Below, piece by piece: positions 23,956 through 50,274 of a stretch of DNA of 51,586 nucleotides. How positions within the stretch are numbered: the first letter of the stretch is position 1; every line of letters starts with the position of its first letter. The notes under the pieces are model-generated. The model saw only the letters and a program-made list of their open reading frames with translations. It was not told the origin of the DNA and did not search any database. The stretch lies in the NCBI GenBank assembly GCA_028293375.1, contig JAQGOY010000228.1:1-51586 (forward strand), in the 5' to 3' direction. The DNA is from Verrucomicrobiales bacterium (GTDB taxonomy: Bacteria; Verrucomicrobiota; Verrucomicrobiia; Limisphaerales; JAQGOY01). The translations under genes and the position numbers were made by a program.

Positions 23956-24075
23956 CCGTGCGGCTCAGATTGTATCCGGAAATCCCCTACCACTATCTAG
24001 GGCCAATTCCCTAATACTTTCCGAGACTTAGCCCTGATTGTGAGCTCGGGGGAGTGTGTTTATATAGGGCTTTCC

Positions 24076-27000
24076 ATGGAAGCCCAGAATAAAACCGAGA
24101 CCGGAACAGCGGCTGTAAGTAGAGTTGTGGCCGCCAAAAAACCTTCCCCTAAACCCACCGCGCGCAAGTCAAAACTCAGGCGCCAGGTCACTGGCAGCAG
24201 GAACACTCCAACGCCTGCGGTTATTTCCGTCTCGGCCACTTCCAGTTTGGAAAAAAAGGATTTACTGGCCGCTTTAGTCGCCCTGAGAAAGGGCGATTTC
24301 AATGTACGGCTGCCAGTTGATTATGTGGGGGTCGACGGAAAACTCGCGGACACTTTCAACGATATCATTGAGTTTAACCAGCGATTGAGCCGGGAACTCG
24401 AACGTATCAGCCGTGTCGTCGGTAAAGAAGGGAAGATATCTCAGCGCGTGGAGGTCGGGGAAGTCACCGGGCTTTGGAACACCGCCGTTAACTCTGTCAA
24501 CAATCTCATTGGTGATTTGGCCTACCCTATTAATGAGTTGGCGCGCGTGATCGGTGCCGTCGCCAAAGGCGATCTGGCCCAAAGCGTCGCCTTGGAAACC
24601 GATGGCAAACCGCTTCAGGGTGAATTTCTAAGAACCGCCAAAACCGTGAATACCATGGTGACGCAGCTCGCTTCCTTCGCTTCTGAAGTAACGCGCGTGG
24701 CACGCGAAGTTGGAACGGAAGGAAAGCTGGGCGGTCAGGCCAAGGTTCGCGGTGTCGCCGGTACCTGGAAAGACCTTACCGATAACGTAAACCTGATGGC
24801 CAGTAACCTGACCAGCCAGGTTCGAAATATTGCTACCGTGACCACCGCTGTCGCCAACGGCGACCTTGCCAAGAAGATTACGGTGGACGTGAAAGGCGAA
24901 TTCCTCGAGCTCAAAAATACCATTAATACCATGGTGGACCAGTTGCGCTCTTTCGCCTCTGAAGTGACACGTGTTGCCCGCGAAGTGGGAACCGAAGGCA
25001 AACTCGGCGGCCAGGCCCGGGTGGAAGGTGTGTCTGGAACCTGGAAAGACCTTACCGATAACGTCAATTCCATGGCCCGTAACCTGACAGCCCAGGTGCG
25101 TAACATTGCCGCCGTAACTACCGCGGTGGCCAATGGAGACCTTTCCAAAAAAATCACTGTCAATGTCCGTGGCGAAATTCTTGAACTCAAGGACACCATC
25201 AACACCATGGTGGATCAACTTTCATCCTTCGCTTCTGAAGTGACTCGTGTGGCCCGCGAAGTGGGAACCGAAGGCAAACTCGGTGGCCAGGCCCAGGTTA
25301 AAGGCGTTGCTGGAACCTGGAAGGATCTGACCGATTCCGTCAACCTTATGGCTGCGAATCTTACCGGCCAGGTGCGTAACATTGCTGATGTCACCAAGGC
25401 AGTCGCAAAAGGCGACCTCTCCAAGAAAATCACGGTCGATGTGAAAGGCGAAATCCTCGAACTGAAGAACACCGTCAATACCATGGTGGATCAGCTTTCA
25501 TCGTTCGCTGCTGAAGTAACCCGTGTGGCTCGCGAAGTCGGTTCTGAAGGCAAACTTGGTGTGCAAGCCGAAGTTAAAGGCGTGGCTGGAACTTGGAAAG
25601 ATCTGACGGACAACGTCAACGTCATGGCCAGTAACCTGACAGTGCAGCTACGTGACGTCTCCAAGGTCGCAACGGCCATTGCTACAGGCGACCTCAGCCA
25701 AAAAATCACGGTGAACGTCAAAGGTGAAATTCTGCAAATCAAGGACACCATTAATACCATGGTGGATCAGCTCTCCTCCTTCGCCTCGGAAGTGACTCGT
25801 GTGGCGCGCGAAGTTGGTTCTGAAGGGAAATTGGGCGTCCAGGCTGAAGTGCGCGGTGTCGCTGGTACCTGGAAGGATCTTACGGACAACGTGAATGTCA
25901 TGGCCAGCAACCTCACGGTCCAGCTTCGTGACGTCTCCAAAGTGGCAACTGCTATTGCCACCGGCGACCTGGGGCAAAAAATAACGGTTAATGTAAAAGG
26001 TGAAATTTTACAAATTAAAAACACCATTAATACGATGGTGGATCAGCTTTCCTCGTTCGCGGCGGAAGTGACCCGCGTGGCGCGCGAAGTGGGAACCGAA
26101 GGAAAACTGGGTGGCCAGGCGGAAGTGAAAGGCGTGGCCGGAACCTGGAAGGACTTGACCGACTCGGTGAACTTCATGGCGCGCAACCTGACGGACCAGG
26201 TGCGTAATATTGCGGATGTGACCAAGGCCGTCGCGGCGGGCGACCTCTCCAAGAAGATCACCGTCGATGTCAAAGGCGAAATTCTCGAACTCAAAAACAC
26301 CATCAACACCATGGTGGATCAGCTCTCTTCGTTCGCCTCTGAAGTAACCCGCGTGGCGCGCGAAGTGGGAACGGAAGGAAAACTGGGTGGCCAGGCGGAA
26401 GTGAAAGGTGTAGCCGGAACGTGGAAGGATCTCACCGATTCCGTGAATTTCATGGCCGGCAATTTGACCGGGCAGGTTCGTAACATCGCGGACGTGACCA
26501 AAGCTGTCGCCGCAGGCGACCTTTCCAAGAAAATTACAGTTAACGTTCGCGGTGAAATCGCGGAGCTTAAAGACACCATCAATACTATGGTGGATCAGCT
26601 CCGGTCATTTGCTTCTGAAGTAACTCGCGTGGCTCGCGAAGTGGGAACGGAAGGAAAATTGGGCGGCCAGGCGGAAGTGAAAGGTGTGGCCGGAACCTGG
26701 AAGGACCTTACGGATTCCGTGAATTTCATGGCCGGTAACCTCACCGGGCAAGTGCGTAACATCGCGGATGTGACCAAGGCTGTCGCCGCAGGTGACCTTT
26801 CCAAGAAGATCACCGTGGACGTCAAAGGCGAAATTCTCGAGCTCAAAAACACCATCAACACCATGGTGGACCAGCTCTCCTCATTCGCCTCTGAAGTAAC
26901 TCGCGTGGCGCGCGAAGTTGGAACTGAAGGCAAACTCGGCGGTCAGGCTGAAGTGAAAGGTGTGGCCGGTACTTGGAAGGACCTTACTGACTCGGTGAAT

Positions 27001-30000
27001 TTCATGGCGCGCAACCTGACAGACCAGGTGCGTAACATTGCGGATGTGACCAAGGCTGTCGCTGCAGGTGACCTTTCCAAGAAGATCACGGTGGACGTCA
27101 AAGGCGAAATTCTGGAACTCAAAAACACCATCAACACCATGGTGGACCAGCTCTCTTCATTCGCTTCTGAAGTAACTCGCGTGGCCCGCGAAGTCGGAAC
27201 CGAAGGCAAACTGGGTGGCCAGGCCGATGTGCGCGGCGTCGCCGGAACGTGGAAAGATTTGACCGACAACGTCAACTTCATGGCCAACAACCTCACGGAT
27301 CAGGTGCGTAATATCGCCGACGTGACCAAAGCGGTGGCAGCCGGGGATCTCTCCAAAAAAATCACCGTGAATGTGCGCGGCGAAATTTTGGAATTGAAAG
27401 ACACCATCAACACCATGGTGGATCAACTCCGCTCGTTCGCTTCGGAAGTAACCCGCGTGGCCCGCGAAGTCGGAACCGAAGGCAAACTGGGTGGCCAGGC
27501 AGACGTCAAAGGCGTCGCAGGAACATGGAAGGATTTGACCGACAACGTCAACTTCATGGCCAACAACCTCACGGATCAGGTGCGTAATATCGCAGACGTC
27601 ACCAAGGCGGTGGCGAACGGTGACCTTTCGAAAAAGATTACGGTCAATGTGCGTGGTGAAATTTTGGAATTGAAAGACACCATCAACACCATGGTGGACC
27701 AACTCCGCTCCTTCGCTTCTGAAGTGACCCGTGTGGCCCGCGAAGTTGGAACCGAAGGAAAATTGGGTGGCCAGGCCGACGTCAAAGGAATCTCAGGAAC
27801 CTGGAAAGATCTGACCGACTCGGTGAACTTCATGGCGCGCAACCTGACAGACCAGGTGCGTAACATCGCCGACGTCACGAAGGCCGTGGCGGCAGGGGAC
27901 CTTTCCAAAAAAATCACGGTCGACGTCAAAGGTGAAATTCTGGAATTGAAGAACACCGTCAACACCATGGTGGACCAGCTTTCTTCTTTTGCTTCTGAAG
28001 TAACCCGCGTGGCCCGCGAAGTCGGAACCGAAGGCAAACTCGGCGGTCAGGCCGAAGTGAAAGGTGTGGCCGGAACCTGGAAGGACTTGACCGATTCCGT
28101 GAATTTCATGGCAGGTAACCTCACCGGTCAGGTCCGTAATATTGCTGCCGTGACCACCGCCGTGGCCAATGGTGACCTTTCCAAAAAGATCACGGTGGAC
28201 GTGAAAGGTGAAATCCTTGAACTCAAGGACACCATTAACACCATGGTGGATCAACTCCGGTCCTTCGCCTCTGAAGTGACCCGTGTCGCCCGCGAAGTCG
28301 GAACCGAAGGAAAACTCGGCGGCCAGGCGGATGTGAAGGGCGTAGCCGGAACCTGGAAGGATTTGACGGACAACGTTAATTTCATGGCCTCCAACCTCAC
28401 CGCGCAAGTTCGTAACATTGCCGACGTGACCAAGGCAGTCGCTGCGGGTGACCTTTCCAAAAAGATTACAGTCGATGTTAAAGGTGAAATTCTCGACCTC
28501 AAAAACACTGTTAACACCATGGTGGACCAGCTCCGTGCGTTCGCTGCGGAAGTAACCCGTGTCGCTCGCGAAGTGGGAACGGAAGGAAAACTTGGCGGCC
28601 AGGCGGAAGTGCAGGGTGTGTCGGGAACGTGGAAGGATTTGACCGACAACGTGAACTTCATGGCCGGTAACCTGACCAACCAGGTCCGCGGTATTGCGAA
28701 AGTTGTGACCGCTGTGGCCAATGGCGACTTGAAACGGAAGCTGACGGTGGAGGCCAAAGGCGAAATCGCCGAACTGGCAGATACCATCAACGGCATGACT
28801 GATACACTGGCTATCTTTGCTGATCAGGTGACAACCGTCGCCCGCGAAGTCGGTGTTGAAGGAAAACTCGGCGGTCAAGCCAGTGTCCCCGGGGCTGCGG
28901 GAACTTGGCGCGATTTGACGGATAATGTCAATCAGTTGGCTGCTAACCTGACTACTCAGGTGCGCGCGATTGCGGAAGTGGCCACTGCCGTCACCAAAGG
29001 CGACCTCACTCGTGCTATTCAGGTCGAAGCTCAGGGCGAAGTCGCTGTGCTCAAGGATACGATCAATGAAATGATTCGTAACTTGAAAGACACCACTCTC
29101 AAGAACTCGGAACAGGACTGGCTCAAGACCAACCTCGCCAAGTTCACCCGTATGTTGCAGGGTCAAAAAGACCTTATCACGGTCGGTCGCCTGATTCTAT
29201 CCGAACTCGCTCCCGTGGTCTCCGCTCAGCATGGCGTCTTCTATATGATGGACAATGCTCGCGATGACCATCACTTGAAATTGTTGGCCAGCTATGCTTA
29301 TCGCGAAAGAAAGACCGTTCAGAATCGTTTCGTCATGGGCGAAAGCCTTGTGGGTCAGTGCGCATTGGAAAAAGAAAAAATCCTGCTGACCAATGTCCCT
29401 GCGAACTATATTCAGATCTCTTCGGGATTAGGTGAGGCTAAACCGTTGAACCTCATTGTCCTGCCCGTGCTCTTCGAAGGTCAGGTTAAGGCGGTGATTG
29501 AATTGGCCTCGTTTGATCGATTCAGCCCCACCCACCAAACCTTCCTGGATCAGCTCACGGAAAGTATTGGTATCGTCTTGAATACGATTGAAGCCAACTC
29601 CCGAACCGAAGATCTTCTCAAGCAATCTCAGTCTCTTGCCAAAGAACTTCAAAGCCAGCAGGAAGAACTGCAGCAGACCAACGCCGAGCTCGAAGACAAA
29701 GCAAAGCTCCTGGCCATGCAGAATGACGAAGTCGAACGCAAAAATCGTGAAGTCGAGCAAGCTCGTCAGGCACTGGAAGAAAAAGCTTCCCAGCTCGCCC
29801 TGACTTCGAAATACAAATCCGAATTCCTCGCGAACATGTCGCACGAACTCCGGACACCGCTAAATAGCTTGCTGCTTCTGGCTCGCCAATTGGTCGATAA
29901 CCCGGAAAAGAATCTTACTGGGAAACAGGTGGAATTCGCTAAAATTATCCATGGGTCTGGAAATGACCTGCTGGCCTTGATTAACGATATTCTCGATCTC

Positions 30001-31875
30001 TCCAAGATTGAATCCGGAACTGTCTCGGTTGATGTCGGCGATCTTCGGTTCAACAACATGCAGGATTATGTCGAGAGGACGTTCCGTCACGTTGCGGATT
30101 CCAAAGGACTCGAATTCCACATCAACATGCATCCCAACCTGCCTCGTTCGATTCAGACGGACGTTAAACGGTTGCAGCAGATCATCAAGAACCTCCTGTC
30201 CAACGCGTTCAAATTTACCGAAAAAGGGCATGTCGTCATGGAAGTCCAGATGGTCCGCACAGGCTGGACTTCGGACCAGGTCACCCTCAACCAGACTGGG
30301 GCGGCAATCGCCTTCTCAGTTTCAGATACCGGTATCGGCATCGCTCCCGAGAAACAGGCCATCATCTTTGAGGCCTTCCAGCAGGCGGACGGAAGCACCA
30401 GCCGCAAATACGGAGGCACAGGCCTTGGTCTTGCCATCAGTCGCGAAATTGCGCGTTTGCTCGGCGGTGAAATTCAAATTGCAAGTAAGGTCGGCGAAGG
30501 CAGTGTGTTCACTCTCTATTTGCCGCAAAACTTCATGATCGTTCGGCCCAGCCGCCAGGGACAGGATACGGAATCCTCCCTTGCTTCGCTGCCGACCCAC
30601 AATCCAAGCAGCTTCCCTTCCGCTGCCACTGTTGCGAAGGCCCTTCCATTGCCCGCTCCTGTGGAGAGGGAAATTGAGGATGACAGGTCGAAGCTGGACA
30701 ACGGAGATAGGGTGGTCCTGATCGTTGAAGACGATTACGACTTCGCTAATTTCCTTTTCAATCTCGCTCACGAACAGGGAATGAAGGCCATTGTCGAAAC
30801 CCGCGGGCTTAAAACATTCGAGTTGGTGAAGGAATACCAACCCCATTCGATTACCCTCGACCTCAGTCTTCCAGATATTGACGGCTGGAAAATTCTGGAG
30901 CGCTTGAAGGACGACTCCAACACACGTCATATTCCCATCTACATCATCTCTGGTGACGACGATCGCGAACGCGGGTTACGGCAGGGCGCCATGGATTTCC
31001 TGACCAAGCCGGTGACCAAAGAAGCCTTGGAAGGGGCCTTCGACCGGATGCGATCCTTTATCGATCGGTCGGTGAAAAATCTTCTGGTGGTGGAAGACGA
31101 TCAGATTCAAAGACAACATATCGTCGATCTCATCGGTGACGGTGATGTTCAGACGACCGCCGTTTCAACAGGTGTCGAGGCGTTGGAAGCCATCAAGTCC
31201 AATCACTTTGATTGCCTGGTGCTGGATCTTGGATTGCCAGACATGAATGGTTTCGCGTTCATCGAGGAAATGCGCAAGACAACTGGGAAAGATATCCCAA
31301 TCATCGTTTACACCGCCCGTGAACTCACCCGCAAGGAACAAAGCAAGCTCCAGAAACTCGCTCAGAGCATCATCATCAAAGATGTGCGCTCTCCAGAGCG
31401 GTTGCTCGATGAAACGTCGCTTTTCCTCCACCGAAACGCGGCTCAACTTCCTGAGCCGAAACGGCAGATGCTCGAAAAATTGCACCAGGCCGACGCTGTG
31501 CTCGCCGGCAAAAAGGTTCTCATTGTCGATGACGATATTCGAAACATCTTTGCCCTTACCAGTATCCTCGAACGATACAATCTTCAGCTCTCGTCCGCCG
31601 AAAATGGCCATGACGCGATCGAAAACCTGGACAAAAATCCCGACATGGATGTTGTCCTGATGGATATCATGATGCCTGAAATGGATGGCTACGACACGAT
31701 CAAGCACATTCGGAAAAATCCTAAGTTCAAGTCACTGCCAATTATCGCTGTCACCGCCAAAGCGATGAAGGGAGACCGTGCGAAATGCATTGAGGCGGGC
31801 GCGTCGGATTATCTGTCTAAACCTGTCGATCCCGAGCAATTGTTATCTACGCTGCGGGCTTGGTTGTATCGGTAA
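24076..31875 (+). CDS. Giant poly-HAMP hybrid histidine kinase (Nik1-like), 16 tandem HAMP units, GAF, HisKA, HATPase, 3 receivers
   Basis: 2599 residues from ATG 24076 (a GTG at 24040 is possible). The N-terminal 60 are basic and low-complexity. A diverged HAMP-like stretch (about 65-189) is followed by sixteen 92-residue units (190-1661) rich in [19 protein letters not shown] and [11 protein letters not shown]. The units match the HAMP plus HAMP-like linker repeats of fungal group III kinases such as Nik1. Next come a GAF domain (about 1680-1835), a coiled coil, HisKA with His1923 in [11 protein letters not shown], and HATPase ([29 protein letters not shown]). Three receivers follow with Asp2262, Asp2384 and Asp2530; the middle one lacks a clear T/K-P ending. 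There is no transmembrane segment and no Hpt, so sensing is cytoplasmic. Two response-regulator genes follow. Confidence 0.95.
24643..29058 (+). repeat. Sixteen head-to-tail 276-bp coding repeats
   Basis: Units start at 24643 and recur every 276 bp without any indel to 29058 (16 x 276 = 4416). This was checked from the ACCATGGTGGAC-type landmark (ATG at 24655, 24931, 25207) and the last unit start at 28783. Each codes for 92 residues of HAMP plus linker. Units 1-15 are very alike; unit 16 is diverged ([19 protein letters not shown]). Units 4 and 5 form a distinct pair with [10 protein letters not shown] and [12 protein letters not shown]. Perfect phasing points to repeated duplication with selection for helical register. 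Confidence 0.97.
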
Positions 31876-41378: not shown

Positions 41379-42275
41379 ATGAGTCAGCCCATCCTCAGCC
41401 TCGAACTGATGCGAAAGCTGGAGCAGTTTCAACTCACTGCTTCCCGCAAGGCATTCAGCTCGTTTAAAGGAGAACGGAGAAGTCAGGCTCGCGGAATATC
41501 CGTGGAGTTCGCCGATTTTCGAAACTACGTCGCTGGCGATGACTTCCGTTATCTGGATTGGAATTTATTCGGTCGTCTCGACCGTTTGTATCTCAAACTT
41601 TACGAGGAAGAGCGGGAATTGCCGGTTCGCATCTTCCTGGATTGCAGCAAGTCCATGGACTTTGGTTCACCCGCGAAGTTTGATTTCGCCAGGCAGCTGG
41701 GGGCCGCGATCGGTTACACCACCTTGGTCGGCTTTGACCGGGTGAGTTTTATTCCCCTTCCTTCCGAAGCGGGTGCCAGCTCGGTCGTGAGTTTCCTGCG
41801 GGCGTTGCGGGGACGCAAGCAGGTGCTTCCCTTCCTCAAATCGCTTGAACTTTTGAAGGCTTCCGGGTCACTCGCCTTCGATGCCGCATTGCGAAAAGCC
41901 GCACTGGAAACCCGCCAGGTCGGATTAGCCGTGGTCATTAGTGATTTCCTGGATCCCCAGGGCTACGCCGTCGGTTTGAATGCGCTCGTAGCCCGTGGTT
42001 TCAAGATTTTGGTCATCCAGGTGCTGTCGCCGGAAGAGTTGGACCCCAGCACTTTCGGAGACCTGCGGTTGATTGATTCCGAGACCGGTTCCATGCAGGA
42101 AGTGACCTTCGGGAAATACCGCCTGGACGCTTACAAAAAAACAGTGGCTAATTATTGCCAGGTACTAAGGGAGTTTTGTGGACAGCGGGGCATTGCTCAT
42201 TTCCTCTTTCCCAGCAACGCCAGCCTGGAGCAGGTTTTGCTCAAGGATTTTCGAAAGGCAAAAATTTGGGGATGA
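41379..42275 (+). CDS. DUF58 protein with VWA-like fold
   Basis: 298 residues. FADFRNYVAGDDFRYLDWNL and YEEERELPVRIFLDCSKSM are the hallmark DUF58 segments. DCSKS gives a DxSxS metal-ion-dependent adhesion site of the VWA fold. RGKQVLPFL and VVISDFLDPQGY complete the fold. DUF58 proteins are the constant partners of MoxR ATPases, with roles in cell envelope stress or aerotolerance and metallochaperone-like complex assembly. It is cytoplasmic and starts 5 nt after MoxR. The downstream VWA reading frame overlaps its 3' end, but its likely start is 19 nt later. Confidence 0.95.
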   Translation: MSQPILSLELMRKLEQFQLTASRKAFSSFKGERRSQARGISVEFADFRNYVAGDDFRYLDWNLFGRLDRLYLKLYEEERELPVRIFLDCSKSMDFGSPAKFDFARQLGAAIGYTTLVGFDRVSFIPLPSEAGASSVVSFLRALRGRKQVLPFLKSLELLKASGSLAFDAALRKAALETRQVGLAVVISDFLDPQGYAVGLNALVARGFKILVIQVLSPEELDPSTFGDLRLIDSETGSMQEVTFGKYRLDAYKKTVANYCQVLREFCGQRGIAHFLFPSNASLEQVLLKDFRKAKIWG

Positions 42276-42294
42276 AACACCGGAGCCACAGGAA

Positions 42295-44130
42295 GTGAAG
42301 TTTTTATTGCCAGCGGCATTTTCGTTTGCAGCGACAATCCCCATTGTCGTGGTCTTTTACTTGCTCAAGCGTAAACGAACCGAAAAAATCGTTTCCAGCA
42401 CTTTGCTCTGGCAAAAATACCTCGCAGAAACTCAGGCCAGTTCTCCATTTCAAAAACTTAAAAATAATTGGCTTCTTTGGTTGCAACTTCTTTTCCTCCT
42501 TCTCCTGCTCTTTGCCACCGCTCGGCCCTATTTTTCAGGACACACTCAAAAATCGCAACTTCGCGTCATCATCCTCGACGCTTCTGCCTCCATGAAGAGC
42601 AGGGATGTCCTGCCGAACCGCTTTGAAAAGTCCAGGGCCGATGTCCTGACGTTGATCAACGGCATGTTGGACGATGACGAATCCATTTTGCTTCTGGTTT
42701 CATCCCGCCCGCAGGTTAAGGTTTCAGCTACTTCCAATAAAAGCGCGCTTCGCAAAGGCCTCGCCGATTCGGAGGCCACCGATGCCAGGACAGGGCTCAG
42801 TGAGGCGTTGAAACTTGCTGAGACATTGACCCGCGATCGTATCGGTTCTGAAATCCATCTTTTTTCGGATGGTGCAGTTAAAACCCTGGGTGAATTCGAA
42901 AATAAAGCGCTGAACGTTATTTACCACCAGGTCGGGGTGGGGAATAGGAATCTTGGAATCATCGGCCTCGATATTCGGGAGAATCCTGAAAACCGCGCCC
43001 AAAGGGCGGTTTATGTCAACGTGGCGAATTTTTCCACCAACTCCGAAACGGTCGTGCTCAAGCTTTCGCTCGATGGCAGGGAGATCAACCAGCAACCACT
43101 TTCCATAGCTGCCGGACAGACCGTGCCCAGTGTTTTTATCTCTTCTCAGGAAAAAGATGGGGTTTTTACCGTGTCGATTGATGCCGCGGACGATCTCGCC
43201 ACAGACAACAAGGCATCCATACCCAGCCTGATTTCGCGTCCCGTTAAGACTCTGCTCGTTACCAGGGGTAATCGCTTTTTGGAAAAGGCTTTGCGCGCCG
43301 CTCCGAATGTCGAATTGCAAGTGTCGGAGGATTTTGCCGGCAACCTCGTTCCATCACCGGATCTGGTCGTACTGGATAACGTGGTTCCAAAGGTATGGCC
43401 TGGGATCAACACTCTGGCTTTTCACGTCGATAATACAAATTGGTTTAATGTAATGGGGGTGACTCCGAACCCCGCGCTTGTCGATTGGAAAATGGCTCAT
43501 CCCGTCCTGCGCTACGCCAGCATGGATAATGTTCAAGTCGCCGAGACCATGACCATCAAGACCCCCGCCTGGGCCGAGGTCCTTGCCGAGTCGCAGCAGA
43601 CCCCCCTCATTCTTGCCGGTGAGGTGGACCGTCACAAAGCCATCTGGGTCGGCTTTGATAACCTGCAAAGCACCTGGCCACTTCGCATTTCTTTTCCCAT
43701 CTTCATTGCTAATTCTGTGAAATGGCTTTCTCCAAACAGCCTCGGCGCTGACTTGATGGTGAATGCCGGCGACCCATTCAGGCGCACTTTTTCGGAGCCC
43801 GTTGCCTCTTATGAACTTCGATTTCCAGATGGACACACCGCGAAATTTCAAAACGAAACCAATAGTTTCGAAGTGGTTGTTGGCGCCACTGACACCAGCG
43901 GCATTTATCGGTTGACCACCGGTACCAATCAACTTGATTTCACTGTCAATTTGTTAAACCCCGAGGAAAGCAACATCACCCCTGCTTCTGCACTGACTTT
44001 CGGCAAATTTACTAAAGTGGAAGCGACCCAAGCGACTCTCGGAAACAAGGAAATTTGGAAATATTTCACTCTTGCCGCGTTGTTCTTTCTTCTCTTCGAG
44101 TGGTGGTTTTATCACAGGAGGACCGCTTGA
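42295..44130 (+). CDS. BatA-like VWA membrane protein
   Basis: 611 residues from GTG 42295, with GGAG 9 nt upstream; the long open frame back to 42178 inside DUF58 adds no family-like sequence. The start VKFLLPAAFSFAATIPIVVV is the BatA-type first helix, and the second is WLLWLQLLFLLLLLFA. The VWA domain begins RVIILDASASMKSRD with intact DxSxS. A central Ig-like region and a GATase-like part (VKTLLVTRGNRFLEKAL) follow. A last helix (YFTLAALFFLLFEWWFY) anchors the C-terminus. The bulk lies in the periplasm or cytoplasm between these anchors as in Bat proteins. The SBP gene starts inside its stop codon. Confidence 0.9.
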   Translation: MKFLLPAAFSFAATIPIVVVFYLLKRKRTEKIVSSTLLWQKYLAETQASSPFQKLKNNWLLWLQLLFLLLLLFATARPYFSGHTQKSQLRVIILDASASMKSRDVLPNRFEKSRADVLTLINGMLDDDESILLLVSSRPQVKVSATSNKSALRKGLADSEATDARTGLSEALKLAETLTRDRIGSEIHLFSDGAVKTLGEFENKALNVIYHQVGVGNRNLGIIGLDIRENPENRAQRAVYVNVANFSTNSETVVLKLSLDGREINQQPLSIAAGQTVPSVFISSQEKDGVFTVSIDAADDLATDNKASIPSLISRPVKTLLVTRGNRFLEKALRAAPNVELQVSEDFAGNLVPSPDLVVLDNVVPKVWPGINTLAFHVDNTNWFNVMGVTPNPALVDWKMAHPVLRYASMDNVQVAETMTIKTPAWAEVLAESQQTPLILAGEVDRHKAIWVGFDNLQSTWPLRISFPIFIANSVKWLSPNSLGADLMVNAGDPFRRTFSEPVASYELRFPDGHTAKFQNETNSFEVVVGATDTSGIYRLTTGTNQLDFTVNLLNPEESNITPASALTFGKFTKVEATQATLGNKEIWKYFTLAALFFLLFEWWFYHRRTA

Positions 44131-45047
44131 CCGGTAATTTTAGATGGTTCATCTTTTTGCTCGCCGCCAGTTTGTTTTCGGGCTGTGGCAGGGGGTCCAA
44201 TGAGGTGATTCTTTACACTTCGCAGGACCAGGTTTTTGTCGAGCCGTTGTTGAAGAAATTTCAAGCCGATTCCGGCATCATTGTCAGGTCTGTCTTTGAC
44301 AACGAATCGGTGAAGACCGTTTCACTGGTCAATCGTCTCCACGCGGAAAAGGGTAATCCACAATGCGATTTGTTCTGGAATAACGAATCCTTCCGAAGCT
44401 TCCAACTTGCCCAGGAGGGCCTCGTCGATCCCCGTTACCCCGTTAAAACCTTTGGGTTCAGGACCAGGCGCATTGTTGTCCACGATCCCCCTCCCGCAGG
44501 TTTTGAAATTCCTTCCAGCTTCAGGGATCTGACCAACAAAAGTTATTTTGGAAAAATTGGGTTTGCTTATCCCATTTACGGAACCACCGGAACTCACTTT
44601 CTCGCCCTGCGACAGCAATGGGGAACCAACGCATGGCTGCAGTGGTGTCAGGCTCTCCAGGCCAACAAACCCTTCATTGTGGACGGTAATTCTGCCGTCG
44701 TGCGCCTTGTTGCCTCAGGAGAAATCTGGCTGGGTATGACTGATTCCGACGATATCGCTTCCGCCCGTGAGGAGCATGTTCCTGTGAAAGGGCTTCCGCT
44801 GAGCGTCGATTCTTTGCGCATTCCCAATTCCATTGCTCACATTGCAGGAGCGCGTCATGTCGAGAACGCAGAAAAGCTGGCTTTATTTCTTCAACTTCCC
44901 GAAACCATCGCTGCTCTTCAGGAAGCACACGCTTTGGAAAAGGAAGGGCAGGGGACCACCGGTTTGTCATCGCCGCCCGATTTCCAACTCATGTTGGCCG
45001 ATTTAAAAACTGCGACAGAGCAGATGCTCCAATTATTTAAAAAGTGA
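44127..45047 (+). CDS. Fe(III)-type ABC solute-binding lipoprotein
   Basis: 306 residues from TTG 44127, which shares bases with the previous stop (TTGA) and has an AGGAGG 5 nt upstream; this choice gives a clean lipoprotein signal, FRWFIFLLAASLFSGC, with lipobox FSGC. The longer open frame to 44055 would sit inside the VWA gene. The mature part begins EVILYTSQDQVFVEPLLKKF, the start of family-1 ferric-binding proteins (FbpA/FutA), and continues DLFWNNESFRS and FAYPIYGTTGTHFLALR. It is exported and tethered to a membrane, where it would hand a metal or small anion to the permease encoded next. No ATPase gene is in this operon. Confidence 0.88.
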   Translation: MTGNFRWFIFLLAASLFSGCGRGSNEVILYTSQDQVFVEPLLKKFQADSGIIVRSVFDNESVKTVSLVNRLHAEKGNPQCDLFWNNESFRSFQLAQEGLVDPRYPVKTFGFRTRRIVVHDPPPAGFEIPSSFRDLTNKSYFGKIGFAYPIYGTTGTHFLALRQQWGTNAWLQWCQALQANKPFIVDGNSAVVRLVASGEIWLGMTDSDDIASAREEHVPVKGLPLSVDSLRIPNSIAHIAGARHVENAEKLALFLQLPETIAALQEAHALEKEGQGTTGLSSPPDFQLMLADLKTATEQMLQLFKK

Positions 45048-47416
45048 CTTGGACATCCACCATCAACAGCCTGTTAGTGGCGGCCAGTTCCGCAGGAATG
45101 GCCACCCTGCTCGGTTTGATTGCTGCCATGTCTGCCGCCAGGTATCCGCGCGCGGGGAAAGCCCAACAATTTGCCTGGTGCCTTATACTTGCCTTGCCGC
45201 CCTTCTTCGTCACCAGCGGTTGGCTTTATTTCTTTGGATTTACCGGTGAGTTCAAATCTTTTCTACCTTTTAATTTATTCAGCCTTTCGGGCTTGACCTC
45301 CATTCTCGTTTTTCTCTACTGGCCCGTTGCCGCCTGGATTTTCCATCGTCGTCTTCCTGCGCTTGCGCCACCGTATTGGGAATGGGAAACTCATTGGACT
45401 CTCTTACGGTTTTGGCGCGTCGTCCTCTTGCCTTTCCTGCGTCCTGCTTTCGCTACATCATTTTTAATAATCTTTGTCTTGTCGATTACCCAGTTCAGCG
45501 TCCCTTCACTCCTCCAGGTCAAAGTCTTGCCCGAAGATGTCTGGCTCCGCATGAACGCAGATCTCAATTATAAGACCGCTGCCCTGCTCCTGTGCCCCAT
45601 GTTGATTTCCATTGCCCTGGTTCTTTACTCCATTAATAAATTTGGAATATTTAAAGGCAGTAATTTCGCCACCTCGGGCGTTGCTGCTCTCCCTCCGGGA
45701 ATGGTTCCTGGGTTGTTCCAATTCATTGCCTGGGGCGCAATTGTTGTTTCGGTATTCCTTCCTGTGGCACCCGTGGCGGGGTCCCTCCAGACCTGGCTGT
45801 CGCTTCGCTCCGCGCTCATCGCGAATATCGCGCCCCTTACCTTGTCCATTCTCACCGCCATCCTCGTTCCCCTCCTCATTTTTTGTTGTTCCCGGGTCCT
45901 CTCAGGGCGCTGGATGGTTCATCTCTCCGCGTTGCTCTTCCTCGCTCCAGGTCTCGCCATTGCCTGGGTTTTAATCGTCGTCTTTAATCGCCCCGTGCTC
46001 GGTTGGTTTTACCCCAGCCTCGGTTGTGTTTTTTTATGTCTTATCATTAAATACTCCGCACCTCTGATTTTTGGAGATTTTCTGGGAATACGCACGAATC
46101 TGAAAAGCCACCTCGCTCTCCTCGATATGGAAGGCGCTGGAAAGGTGAAGGCGAATTTGCTCCTCGCTCCGCTTGCCTTCCAGGAACTCCTCGGCCCCAT
46201 GATTGTCACCGCTTTGCTTGTCATCTGGGATGTTGAAACCGTCGTCATGATCATGCCCCCCGGTCGCGAGACTCTCTCCTTGCGCGTGTTTAATATGCTT
46301 CACTACGGCCACAATAGCCAAATCAATGCCATCGGAGTCATTTTGATGGGTGGAGCTTTGTTCACCGCTGGCATTCTTATCTGCCTGCAACTTTTTTGCC
46401 GGCGCTTTTTTCACCGGATTTTGGTCCGTTGTTTTTTGGTGGTTCTCACCCTGTTCAGTTTTTCGTGTTCCCCCAAAAATGAAACTTCTGCCGCAACGGG
46501 TTCTCCCATCCATAACAGTAAATTATTCAGTGCTGTCCAAATCATCGGTGGCAAGGGAGCCGGGGCCGGTCAATTTAATAAACCCCGATCTGTGGCCGTC
46601 GACGACAATGACAATCTCTACGTCGTCGACATGACTGGTCGCGTCCAGAAATTTGACGATCACGGGTTGTATTTGAGCAGTTGGCAAATGCCCCAGACTG
46701 ATCTCGGCAAACCCAAAGGCATGTGCATCGACCAGGCCGGGAATCTTGTCCTGGTGGAGCCGCACTATTCCCGGTTGAATTACTTCTCCAAAACGAACAG
46801 TTCACTTCTCGCCCAATGGGGTGTGCACGGAACCAATGATGGCCAACTCGCTTTCCCTCGTTCAGCCACTGTTCTTGGAGATGGCCGGACATTCGTCACA
46901 GAATACGGTCAATGCGAACGCGTCTCCTGTTTTAGTGCTTTCGGTTCCCGGTTTCTTTTTTCCTTCGGAACTCCCGGCGATGGCCCTGGCCAGTTTAATC
47001 GTGCTGAAGGCGTTTGTTCCGACTCCAGGGGCATGCTCTACATCGCAGACTCCTGCAACCATCGTGTCCAGATTTTCAATTCCGATGGCAAATTTGTTAG
47101 CGCCTTCGGCAGTCCTGGCAGGGATCCCGGCCAGATGAACTATCCCTACGATGTTCGCGTCGATGCGGAAGGCTATTGTTTTGTCTGCGAATTCGGCAAC
47201 AGCCGCATCCAGGTATTCAAGGGTTCGAATGTTCCAGTGGAAGTCATCGGGCGTGGCGGCAGTGAACCCGCTGAATTTTCCAACCCGTGGAGCATCGCCC
47301 TCGATAAGCATGGCAATTTATTTGTGGCTGACGCCATGAATCACCGGGTTCAAAAACTCTTGAGAAAACACGAAAGCGCCAGCCGGCAGGCAATGGAGAA
47401 AAAACAAGCTCTGTGA
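45044..47416 (+). CDS. ABC permease fused to six-blade NHL propeller
   Basis: 790 residues from GTG 45044 (GTGA overlap with the SBP stop). Residues 1-465 are an FbpB-like permease with about eleven helices. Both cytoplasmic EAA-type loops are degenerate: WETHWTLLRFWRVVLLPFLR and DMEGAGKVKANLLLAPLAF keep the distal part but not E-A-A. A hydrophobic segment with a lipobox-like end (LVRCFLVVLTLFSFSC, Cys475) follows. Six NHL repeats (about 495-785) end the chain, such as FNKPRSVAVDDNDNLYVVD and FSNPWSIALDKHGNLFVAD. The propeller is therefore probably periplasmic. An internal TTG at 46421 could make the propeller as a separate lipoprotein. Such a fusion is unusual. Confidence 0.82.
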   Translation: MTWTSTINSLLVAASSAGMATLLGLIAAMSAARYPRAGKAQQFAWCLILALPPFFVTSGWLYFFGFTGEFKSFLPFNLFSLSGLTSILVFLYWPVAAWIFHRRLPALAPPYWEWETHWTLLRFWRVVLLPFLRPAFATSFLIIFVLSITQFSVPSLLQVKVLPEDVWLRMNADLNYKTAALLLCPMLISIALVLYSINKFGIFKGSNFATSGVAALPPGMVPGLFQFIAWGAIVVSVFLPVAPVAGSLQTWLSLRSALIANIAPLTLSILTAILVPLLIFCCSRVLSGRWMVHLSALLFLAPGLAIAWVLIVVFNRPVLGWFYPSLGCVFLCLIIKYSAPLIFGDFLGIRTNLKSHLALLDMEGAGKVKANLLLAPLAFQELLGPMIVTALLVIWDVETVVMIMPPGRETLSLRVFNMLHYGHNSQINAIGVILMGGALFTAGILICLQLFCRRFFHRILVRCFLVVLTLFSFSCSPKNETSAATGSPIHNSKLFSAVQIIGGKGAGAGQFNKPRSVAVDDNDNLYVVDMTGRVQKFDDHGLYLSSWQMPQTDLGKPKGMCIDQAGNLVLVEPHYSRLNYFSKTNSSLLAQWGVHGTNDGQLAFPRSATVLGDGRTFVTEYGQCERVSCFSAFGSRFLFSFGTPGDGPGQFNRAEGVCSDSRGMLYIADSCNHRVQIFNSDGKFVSAFGSPGRDPGQMNYPYDVRVDAEGYCFVCEFGNSRIQVFKGSNVPVEVIGRGGSEPAEFSNPWSIALDKHGNLFVADAMNHRVQKLLRKHESASRQAMEKKQAL

Positions 47417-50274
47417 AGTTTTATTTTTCAAATCCAATTTGGTTGTGGGCGCTGATCCCTGTTTTGGGTTGGGTCTGTTGGTTTGGGCTTCGTTCGTCAC
47501 TTTCTCTTTCCCCATGGCGCAAGGCCCTTTCCATTGCGTTGCGAATCATTATTGTTCTCCTCGCCTTGTTCGCTCTTGCCGGACTTCAATTGCAAAAGCC
47601 CATCGAGGGCATGAATACTTTTTATCTCCTGGATCGCTCCCAAAGCGTCCCGTTCGCCCAGCAGGAGGCCGCCCGCCTCATGGTCATCAGGCAAATCTCT
47701 CAAAAAAAACCGAATGACAAGGTGGGTGTCGTGGTTTTCGGGGCGGATGCCGCCATTGAGAGTTCCGTCTCCCCAGTGCTTGGCCTCGATAAAATTCAAT
47801 CCGTCATCAACGCCAACGGAAGCGATATTGGCGCCGCGCTGCGTCTGGCTTCCGCCGCGTTCCCGGAAGCAGGTCAAAAGAAAATGGTGCTCTTCTCTGA
47901 CGGAAACGAAAACCTGGGGGATGCGCTTTCCGCAGTGGTTTCGGCCCGCCCCCTCGGTGCCACCCTCGACATCGTTCCACTTGGATCCGCTCGGGCTCAT
48001 GATGTTGCCGTTGAAAAAATTGCCCTGCCTCCCAATCTGAAAAAGGGCCAGACTTTTGATGTTAAGATTTTTCTGAAAAGTGATGCCGCCACCAGGGCGA
48101 ATCTGCGCTTGTTTAAAAACGAGCAGTTACTTGGAGAACAACAGGTCGACCTGAGTGAAGGAAAAAATCTCTTCACCTTTCCCCAGGAACTGGCGGATCC
48201 CGGCTTTTACCAATATTCCGTCCAGGTGGATGTAGCAGGGGACGTTGTTCCTCAAAATAACCACGCTTCCGCCTTCGCCAATGTCAAAGGTGAACCGCGA
48301 ATTTTGGTAATTTCTTCCGACCCCTCAAAGGACGCGCCCCTCGCCAAAGCTTTAATTTCTGGAAAACTCGAAGTACGCATGGGAGGAATCGAACTCTTTC
48401 CAAAATCGCTGGCGGAAATGAACAGCTACGATTCCATTTTCCTAAGCAATATTGGGGCAGGGGAAGCGAGTCGTGAATCATGGCAACTCCTGGAGAGCGC
48501 CGTCCGCGATTTCGGCGTGGGTCTTGTCTGCCTCGGCGGAGATCAAAGTTACTCTGCCGGTTCTTATCGCGGAACTCCCCTCGAGGACACTCTGCCTGTC
48601 AGCATGGACCTTAACAGTAAAAAGGTGCTTCCTTCAGGAGCACTGGTGCTGGTCGTGCATGCCACAGAATTTCCCAATGGGAATCAGTGGTCCCGCGATA
48701 TCGCCTTCGCAGCTTTGAATGGTCTGGGACCTCTCGATGAAATGGGAGTTGTCTTATGGAATGGCACCGATCAATGGCTCTTTCCCCTTCAAAAGGTCGG
48801 AGACAAGAAAAAAATGGGTCAACTGATTTCCGGGATGACGCCCGGCGATATGCCCAGTTTCAAAAACGTCATGAAAATGGCTTACACCGGCCTCAAAGAT
48901 TCGAAAGCTCACCTGAAACACATGGTCGTTTTCAGCGATGGCGATCCTGGCCGTCCCGATGACTCGGATATCCAGGACATTGTGAATGACAAAATCACTA
49001 TCAGCACCGTGATGATCGGTGGCCATACCGCTCCCGATAACATGGTCATGATGGCCAACGCAGGACACGGGCAATTCTATGATGTCCGTTCTGCGGAAGT
49101 GCTGCCTCAGATTTTTATCAAGGAATCGGCTGTCATCCTGAAGAGCGCCATCTTTGAAGAGCCTTTCATTCCCAAACTCGTCCAGGCTTCCGAACTCGTC
49201 CAGGGCATCGCCGCTGCTGAATATCCCGAACTGCAGGGATATGTTTGCGTCACTCCCAAGGGGCGCGCCGAGATTCCTCTGGTCTCCGACAAGGGCGACC
49301 CCATTCTTGCCCACTGGCAGTTTGGACTTGGCCGCTCCGTGGCCTACACTTCCGACGCCAGGGCCAAGTGGGCTCGAAACTGGCTCGATTGGGCCAAATA
49401 CCAGCAATTCTGGACTCAAGTGGCTCAATGGAGTTTGCGCAGAATTGAAAATAGTGAGTACAACACGGATATTAATATTGAAAAAGGAACCGGGAAATTG
49501 AATGTCGAAGCCCTCGATAACCAGGGTAACTTTCGTAATTTCCTCGATCTTCAAGCCCTGGTGGTCGATCCAAAGGGCCAGAAACAAACCGTCCGGCTTG
49601 AGCAAACAGGTCCTGGCCGCTACGAAGTAAATTTTCCTGGCCGCGAAGTTGGTTCCTACCTCGTAAATCTCGTCTCATTGAAGGATGGCAAGGTGCTTTC
49701 CTCACAGGCCTTGGGAGCCAGCGTGAACTATTCACCGGAATTCGCTTCCGCCGATCCCAATTTCAATCTCTTGCAAAGGCTGGCCGATGCGGGCGCCGGC
49801 AAAATCCTCCTTCCGGAGGAGAATCCCTTCCTCCTTGGCCGGAAACGAACATTTCAACCTCTGGATCTCCTCACTTTCCTCCTCAAGTGCGCCCTGGTCC
49901 TGTTCCCTCTGGATGTGGCCATACGCAGGATTCATTTGGATCGCTCCGATTGGGCGCTTTTCCTCGCTGGTTTACGCAATCGATTGTTCTGGAAAAGGGC
50001 TAAGCCTTCCGTAGCCTCGGAGGAAAACATGGGTTCGTTGCTGGCCAAAACAAAACAAACACGCGATCGCACCTCCTCGGCCCCGGCCATCGATCCCAAA
50101 CTGTTCGTCCCTAAGGCAGCCCCAAAAGATGTGCCACTCCCCTCATCTGTGCCAAAAGTTCCCCAGCAATCCTCCCCGGTGGAACTTTCCAAACCATCCA
50201 CACTGGTCCCCCCGCCTCCCTCCACCGCTTCAGCGCTTCTGGAAGCAAAGAAACGGGCTAAAAAGAAATTATAG
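47413..50274 (+). CDS. Large VWA / GATase1-like membrane protein (Bat-associated)
   Basis: 953 residues from GTG 47413 (GTGA overlap). The N-terminus has two helices (FSNPIWLWALIPVLGWV and ALRIIIVLLALFALAGL). VWA 1 begins FYLLDRSQSVPFAQ with a DxSxS site. A GATase1-like part has RILVISSDPSKDAPLAKAL and GVGLVCLGGDQSYSAGSY. VWA-like sequence continues with HMVVFSDGDPGRP. Near the C-terminus DLLTFLLKCALVLFPLDVAI is a last helix, followed by a Lys/Pro-rich cytoplasmic tail of about 125 residues. The layout is like the large VWA proteins paired with MoxR/DUF58 in Verrucomicrobia and Planctomycetes. It ends the operon. Confidence 0.9.
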   Translation: MKFYFSNPIWLWALIPVLGWVCWFGLRSSLSLSPWRKALSIALRIIIVLLALFALAGLQLQKPIEGMNTFYLLDRSQSVPFAQQEAARLMVIRQISQKKPNDKVGVVVFGADAAIESSVSPVLGLDKIQSVINANGSDIGAALRLASAAFPEAGQKKMVLFSDGNENLGDALSAVVSARPLGATLDIVPLGSARAHDVAVEKIALPPNLKKGQTFDVKIFLKSDAATRANLRLFKNEQLLGEQQVDLSEGKNLFTFPQELADPGFYQYSVQVDVAGDVVPQNNHASAFANVKGEPRILVISSDPSKDAPLAKALISGKLEVRMGGIELFPKSLAEMNSYDSIFLSNIGAGEASRESWQLLESAVRDFGVGLVCLGGDQSYSAGSYRGTPLEDTLPVSMDLNSKKVLPSGALVLVVHATEFPNGNQWSRDIAFAALNGLGPLDEMGVVLWNGTDQWLFPLQKVGDKKKMGQLISGMTPGDMPSFKNVMKMAYTGLKDSKAHLKHMVVFSDGDPGRPDDSDIQDIVNDKITISTVMIGGHTAPDNMVMMANAGHGQFYDVRSAEVLPQIFIKESAVILKSAIFEEPFIPKLVQASELVQGIAAAEYPELQGYVCVTPKGRAEIPLVSDKGDPILAHWQFGLGRSVAYTSDARAKWARNWLDWAKYQQFWTQVAQWSLRRIENSEYNTDINIEKGTGKLNVEALDNQGNFRNFLDLQALVVDPKGQKQTVRLEQTGPGRYEVNFPGREVGSYLVNLVSLKDGKVLSSQALGASVNYSPEFASADPNFNLLQRLADAGAGKILLPEENPFLLGRKRTFQPLDLLTFLLKCALVLFPLDVAIRRIHLDRSDWALFLAGLRNRLFWKRAKPSVASEENMGSLLAKTKQTRDRTSSAPAIDPKLFVPKAAPKDVPLPSSVPKVPQQSSPVELSKPSTLVPPPPSTASALLEAKKRAKKKL

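Follow-up and report, generated by a model that had tools for sequence, protein, structure and literature searches.

The window, by which is meant the whole 51,586-nucleotide stretch analysed here (contig JAQGOY010000228.1 of a Verrucomicrobiales bacterium, assembly GCA_028293375.1, in which a viral contig scan found no viral signal), carries on its forward strand an operon with the gene order MoxR-DUF58-BatA-SBP-[permease-NHL]-VWA, SBP being a substrate-binding lipoprotein. The genes and the parts of the fused gene are given below, the fractions for the neighbours being counts over 140 homologous loci, many of which are cut by contig ends.

40372..41373, + strand: MoxR AAA+ ATPase (AAA_3, 206 bits; found at 55/140 loci)
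41379..42275, + strand: DUF58 protein (Pfam; 87/140 loci)
42178..44130, + strand: BatA/VWA membrane protein, true start probably inside the listed ORF (Pfam; 111/140 loci)
44055..45047, + strand: substrate-binding lipoprotein (SBP_bac_11), true start may lie inside (PF13531, 47 bits; 119/140 loci)
45044..46420, + strand: FbpB-type permease part, residues 1-459, two six-helix halves (AlphaFold2 model of residues 1-445, match to 9j4r)
45380..45433, + strand: EAA-type loop 1, residues 113-130, two residues short (comparison of Glu-to-Pro spans)
46115..46171, + strand: EAA-type loop 2, residues 358-376, in the window without the usual D/E-A-A and one residue short (alignment of relatives)
46421..46468, + strand: 13th hydrophobic segment, up to the internal lipobox Cys475 (codon 46466-46468; alignment, hydrophobicity)
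46487..47413, + strand: six-bladed NHL propeller (PF01436, model strands)
47413..50274, + strand: VWA plus GATase1-like protein, the usual downstream neighbour (Pfam; 125/140 loci)

Architecture of the fused gene and its operon

The ORF at 45044-47416 (+ strand; 790 codons, GTG start, no internal stop) overlaps the SBP stop codon at its 5' end and the start of the VWA gene at its 3' end, in each case through the sequence GTGA, and encodes an FbpB-fold 12-helix ABC-importer permease followed in frame by an internal lipobox (Cys475) and a six-bladed NHL propeller. A first-pass annotation of the same DNA had proposed an in-frame joining of a permease to exactly six NHL repeats, and both points were confirmed: all 790 codons are open, PF01436 (NHL repeats) matched at 93.1 bits against a cut-off of 20, and six four-stranded blades were counted from the strand list of an AlphaFold2 model of the whole 790-aa protein (51-row alignment, pLDDT 87.7, pTM 0.85), in which the first propeller strand (495-504) closes the last blade.

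Searches of residues 1-459 of the window protein against Pfam yielded no permease family, PF00528 included, at E <= 0.1; PF00528 scored under its cut-off in two relatives (L038 and L065), and NCBIfam offered weak similarity to PotC only. A separate AlphaFold2 model of the permease (residues 1-445, 33-row alignment, pLDDT 90.9) matched FbpB, the single-chain ferric permease of Thermus thermophilus (9j4r), with a TM-score of 0.84 (E 5.8e-11), and a second structural comparison aligned 430 residues of the same two proteins (Z 34.0, rmsd 3.1), far ahead of the next match (Z 18.0 over 201 residues), thereby placing the fold of two six-helix halves in the window protein. FbpB was also the top PDB match by sequence profile (E 3e-26), and the permease descends from the FbpB/PhnU2 group. 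With FbpB (of the FbpBC system) and the PhnU2-type permeases it shares the single-chain two-half fold and an SBP gene next door, but it differs from them in having no ATPase gene, a shorter loop 1 and a C-terminal lipobox with propeller, the permease helices being followed by a further hydrophobic segment at residues 459-477.

Across the homologous loci the SBP, permease, NHL and VWA components keep stable company, with MoxR, DUF58 and BatA upstream; VWA2 was detected at E <= 1e-60 in 5/5 permease-positive genomes tested as against 3/15 permease-negative ones. The SBP at 44055-45047 gave a weak NCBIfam match to 2-aminoethylphosphonate SBPs. MoxR-vWA beta-propeller ternary systems have been reported in Verrucomicrobia, the eLife 2020 paper (PMC7159879) describing a propeller C-terminal in the vWA protein and a MoxR P-loop variant, GXXXTAKS, that is frequent rather than universal. 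MoxR, vWA and propeller components are shared with those systems, but the window has its propeller as an NHL lipoprotein fused to a permease. No propeller family was found at E <= 0.1 in 42178-44130 or 47413-50274; the ternary-system (bpMoxR) label was rejected on this result. The window MoxR has the P-loop GVPGLGKT, not the GXXXTAKS variant, and matched PF20030 at 46.8 bits (cut-off 27) as against 206 bits for AAA_3.

Distribution of the fusion and relatives outside the order

The permease was sought in 116 genomes of one verrucomicrobial order (Pedosphaera/Limisphaerales-type) and found in 63, the window's own included. Flanks were fetched for 60 of the other 62 permease-bearing genomes (G043 and G054 were left out, and L032 stands for G038), and permease and NHL propeller shared a single frame in 51/60 homologues. 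Among the exceptions, two loci (L074 and L094) run off contig ends, L032 has no NHL within ~1 kb following the permease, and L041 (G099) shows a frame change just after the lipobox that may be an assembly error, for which reason it was left out of the count of separate genes. In L046 (G079) and L037 (G026) the NHL protein has a gene of its own, and in L065-L067 (G001, G093 and G060) the operon ends after the permease, G001 and G093 carrying a separate NHL gene on another contig, where it precedes VWA. In G079 a gene for a pilin-like DUF1559 (SBP_bac_10) protein (L046:4353-5486) stands between the permease gene and the separate NHL gene.

All of 80 further named loci (the best 80 of 256) were likewise fused, albeit as a set retrieved with propeller patterns, biased to fused cases, in part repeating the same genomes and overlapping with the 60; they are assigned to Pedosphaera, Limisphaerales and Verrucomicrobia subdivision 3. 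Hosts of the fused family are soil and freshwater bacteria. Because the same single frame recurs in 51/60 homologues and the lipobox Cys is invariant, the fusion is not a sequencing accident, and an artefact of frameshift or missing stop codon was rejected on the recurrence of that frame across the order. The fusion is real and order-wide, and both it and the loss of the ATPase gene are well supported.

By way of contrast, permease and NHL are separate genes not just in G079, G026, G001 and G093 but also outside the order, in G119 and G331, a comparison that the first-pass annotation had recommended. The permease profile matched 30/387 genomes in the outside-order search (again counting the window's own), and the 29 outgroup loci, taken with 1.5-kb flanks, yielded 15 ATPase-like ORFs of 200-460 aa. 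Three genomes carry an NHL relative together with an ATPase. In G119 a permease cut by the contig start is followed by an ABC ATPase (PF00005, 109.6 bits), NHL and VWA as separate genes. The order in G331 is SBP, a 543-aa ORF at the permease's place that has no Pfam match, ATPase, NHL, VWA, MoxR, DUF58 and BatA, and in G350 SBP and a 449-aa ORF, again where the permease would be expected, precede a 627-aa frame that combines ATPase and NHL. Neither the 543-aa nor the 449-aa ORF matches the permease profile, and a permease role for them is inferred from place and hydrophobic look. These SBP-permease-ATPase-NHL(-VWA) sets share component families and order with the window operon, and in G119 and G331 NHL adjoins VWA as it does in the window; they differ in that the ATPase is present and the NHL protein is either separate (G119, G331) or in the ATPase frame (G350).

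The first-pass annotation had named homologues with normal docking loops and an adjoining ATPase as evidence against its idea. Such homologues occur outside the order (L153 and L154 for both loops, and G119, in which loop 2 alone was read), and since they represent the likely starting point of the fused permease they do not refute it. In the tree the split cases L046 and L037 fall inside the fused group, and G119 sits on a long branch at a base that the tree leaves unsettled. Because the parts occur separately and with an ATPase outside the order (G119, G331), the most likely history is that of an importer accompanied by a separate propeller lipoprotein, in which the ATPase gene disappeared and the fusion arose; with G119 left unplaced at the base, the relative order of these two events is a matter of inference. 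Verrucomicrobiota thus offer natural intermediates, namely separate genes with ATPase, fused genes without it, and genes split again.

Two minor observations concern these relatives. In G350 (L199:8370-10250) a lipobox and an ATG lie between ATPase and NHL, a second in-frame joining of this propeller to an importer part. SBP-permease pairs with no detected adjoining ATPase were recorded at L178:4865-6301, L179:6254-7948 and L180:1574-3232, a beta-helix protein lying near the L178 pair and an RHS-repeat protein near that of L180; SBP-permease pairs that the permease profile matched in G321 and G210 had no ATPase, MoxR or NHL neighbours in the stretches inspected.

The lipobox and the fate of the chain

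The lipoprotein signal that had been proposed to end at Cys475 was borne out by the alignment of fused proteins, in which this Cys is invariant (51/51) and is shortly preceded by Lys or Arg in every case (51/51); Gly directly precedes it in 47 rows of the 60-relative alignment, rows without the region being counted. A loose PROSITE-type lipobox pattern fits the Cys475 position in 42/51 fused proteins, the window's among them, and misses 9/51, as against 33/305 fits at other Cys residues of the permease part. The window's own FSFSC is weaker than the family's LAGC. All 8 inspected NHL genes outside the permease frame (L046, L037, L181, L197, L199, L198, L354 and L355) have a lipobox-like end, including L199, where NHL is in one frame with the ATPase.

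The suggestion that a start at TTG 46421 could yield a free propeller was not supported: no SD-like site is visible there, and an internal start combining ATG with an SD-like word was found in 0/81 scored distinct fused frames, any start codon with an SD-like word in 6/81, and no start codon at all in 9/81. The scored frames were 81 of 100 distinct fused frames, the other 19 being missed by the lipobox pattern used; 17 of these show Gly-Cys or Ala-Cys at the lipobox place, and alignment rows show the lipobox Cys in the remaining two (L058 and L068).

Since the lipobox is conserved in fused and separate NHL proteins alike and no internal start is conserved, selection seems to act on the propeller as a lipoprotein, with its own gene or without. 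Judged from the sequences, the simplest reading of the fused gene is a polyprotein, probably cut at the predicted lipobox, the conservation of which suggests that one chain is divided into a permease and a lipidated propeller. Permease and propeller would accordingly be made as one chain, with helix 13 as a lipoprotein signal in its interior; the chain would be lipidated and probably cleaved at Cys475, delivering permease and periplasmic propeller in equal numbers. If this is true, an internal lipobox lets one frame yield both a polytopic membrane protein and a lipoprotein. An uncut chain, which would hold the propeller over the periplasmic opening of the permease as a lid or SBP dock, would suit the single frame of most members and the want of a conserved internal start, but it is improbable given that the invariant lipobox Cys argues for lipidation and a function apart from the permease, and that several relatives have separate lipoprotein genes.

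Docking loops, ATPases and possible function

Each loop was measured between its conserved Glu and Pro. The span of loop 1 is 17 in every one of the 61 ingroup proteins, counting that of the window; among 28 outgroup permeases it is 19 (25 proteins) or 18 (3 proteins). For loop 2 the span is 19 in 59/60 ingroup and 29/29 outgroup rows, only the window protein having 18, and this loop is near-canonical in most of the 60 relatives (Asp/Glu in 50, Ala at its two positions in 36 and 44, G364 in 53 and P376 in 59) but degraded in the window protein. The earlier statement that both docking loops are degraded is therefore correct for the window protein and not for the family, where only loop 1 is shortened; the intact EAA loop (EEASANLGASPLRTLIKITLP) ascribed to the partial permease at 3-674 of the window was confirmed. 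A strict EAA spacing pattern matched 0 first-half and 3 second-half loops in 61 ingroup rows and 13 and 21, respectively, in 29 outgroup rows, the ingroup being undercounted because the pattern demands an acidic residue two places before Ala.

As had been noted at first reading, the window operon contains no ABC ATPase gene detectable by Pfam or by an ABC ATPase HMM derived from 18 outgroup ABC sequences. Applied to the fetched flanks of the 140 homologous loci, many cut by contig ends, this HMM gave a single match, a PhnT2/CysA-like ATPase in G115, followed in the same orientation by a 672-aa ORF (the two at L234:131-3299) and then by MoxR. The permease family departs from an ordinary importer in two respects, its loop 1 and the want of an adjacent ATPase. 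Elsewhere in the genomes, a TOBE_2-type ATPase was absent from 5/15 operon genomes tested, single-contig G097 included. Since TOBE_2 by itself says too little about ATPases that might act in trans, a wider profile was also run; it found MalK/CysA-family ATPases in 36/36 operon genomes searched (36 of the 63 permease-bearing), a result that went against the claim that these genomes have no ATPase. One such ATPase, in G071, has no adjoining permease gene. The G097 protein that best fits the importer-type ATPase model is encoded next to permeases and an SBP-like protein; we read this ATPase as CysA-like and the permeases as CysTW-like.

These data bear on whether the permease is still part of an importer, at which a shared CysA/MalK-type ATPase would dock in trans with loop 1 adapted to it. 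That something may still dock there is suggested by the near-canonical loop 2 of most relatives, and there is a precedent in the importer operons without their own ATPase gene that are served by MsmX/MsmK, where orphan ATPases serve several sugar importers (PMC7658222); these are sugar importers, and the parts of that paper drawn on here describe no propeller. Because of the wider profile result, the G071 orphan and this precedent, a trans-acting ATPase is retained as a minority possibility. Against it stand the missing adjoining ATPase throughout the order, the loop 1 two residues short in 61/61, the alteration of both loops in the window protein, the 5/15 genomes (G097 among them) without a TOBE_2-type ATPase, and the position of the CysA-like ATPase of G097 beside its own CysTW-like permeases.

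The explanation preferred here, to which a probability of about 0.45 is attached and which is thus tentative, is that the membrane part of an FbpB/2-aminoethylphosphonate-type importer entered a MoxR-DUF58-VWA operon, shed its ATPase gene and became fused to a once separate propeller lipoprotein, the chain being cut as outlined above. Its observed basis consists of homology, fold, operon, fusion, conserved lipobox, short loop 1 and the relatives with an ATPase and separate NHL. The higher frequency of VWA2 in permease-positive genomes and the stronger conservation of the propeller relative to the permease also speak for it. The permease would then no longer be a pump with a dedicated ABC ATPase, and would serve instead as a docking and gating platform for the SBP; the propeller would pass the state of the SBP to its constant neighbour, the VWA protein, with MoxR supplying ATP-driven remodelling. 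These last two steps, platform and relay, are the least certain, and the shift from pump to sensor proposed in the first-pass annotation is plausible but unproven. The near-canonical loop 2, the MalK/CysA-family ATPases in 36/36 genomes, the G071 orphan, the upstream ATPase in G115, the weak FSFSC and the unsettled branching of G119 all count against this explanation. Its more ambitious form is rather doubtful: that the permease has exchanged its coupling to ABC ATPases for one to the MoxR/vWA AAA+ machine, SBP ligand being sensed via the permease and handed to a propeller cut at the lipobox, so as to make a trans-envelope device with a different motor.

Least likely of the readings considered is that the permease is a passive leftover that mainly provides an export signal for the propeller. 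It is less well conserved than the propeller (mean pairwise identity 43% as against 61%), and in the window protein the loops are degraded and the lipobox is weak; yet complete open permease frames of ~450 residues and 16 invariant columns in the 33-row permease alignment imply selection on the permease, and the SBP gene is kept beside it.

Should the preferred explanation hold, the core of an ABC importer can dispense with an ATPase of its own and work for another kind of motor, and the fused permease is a candidate ligand input for the poorly understood MoxR-DUF58-Bat operons of Verrucomicrobiota. Searches of open-licence PMC papers listed no description of the permease-NHL fusion or of the operon, and this variant of the ABC importer permease is apparently undescribed so far. 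Elsewhere in the window, positions 24040-31875 hold an open frame of 2611 aa.
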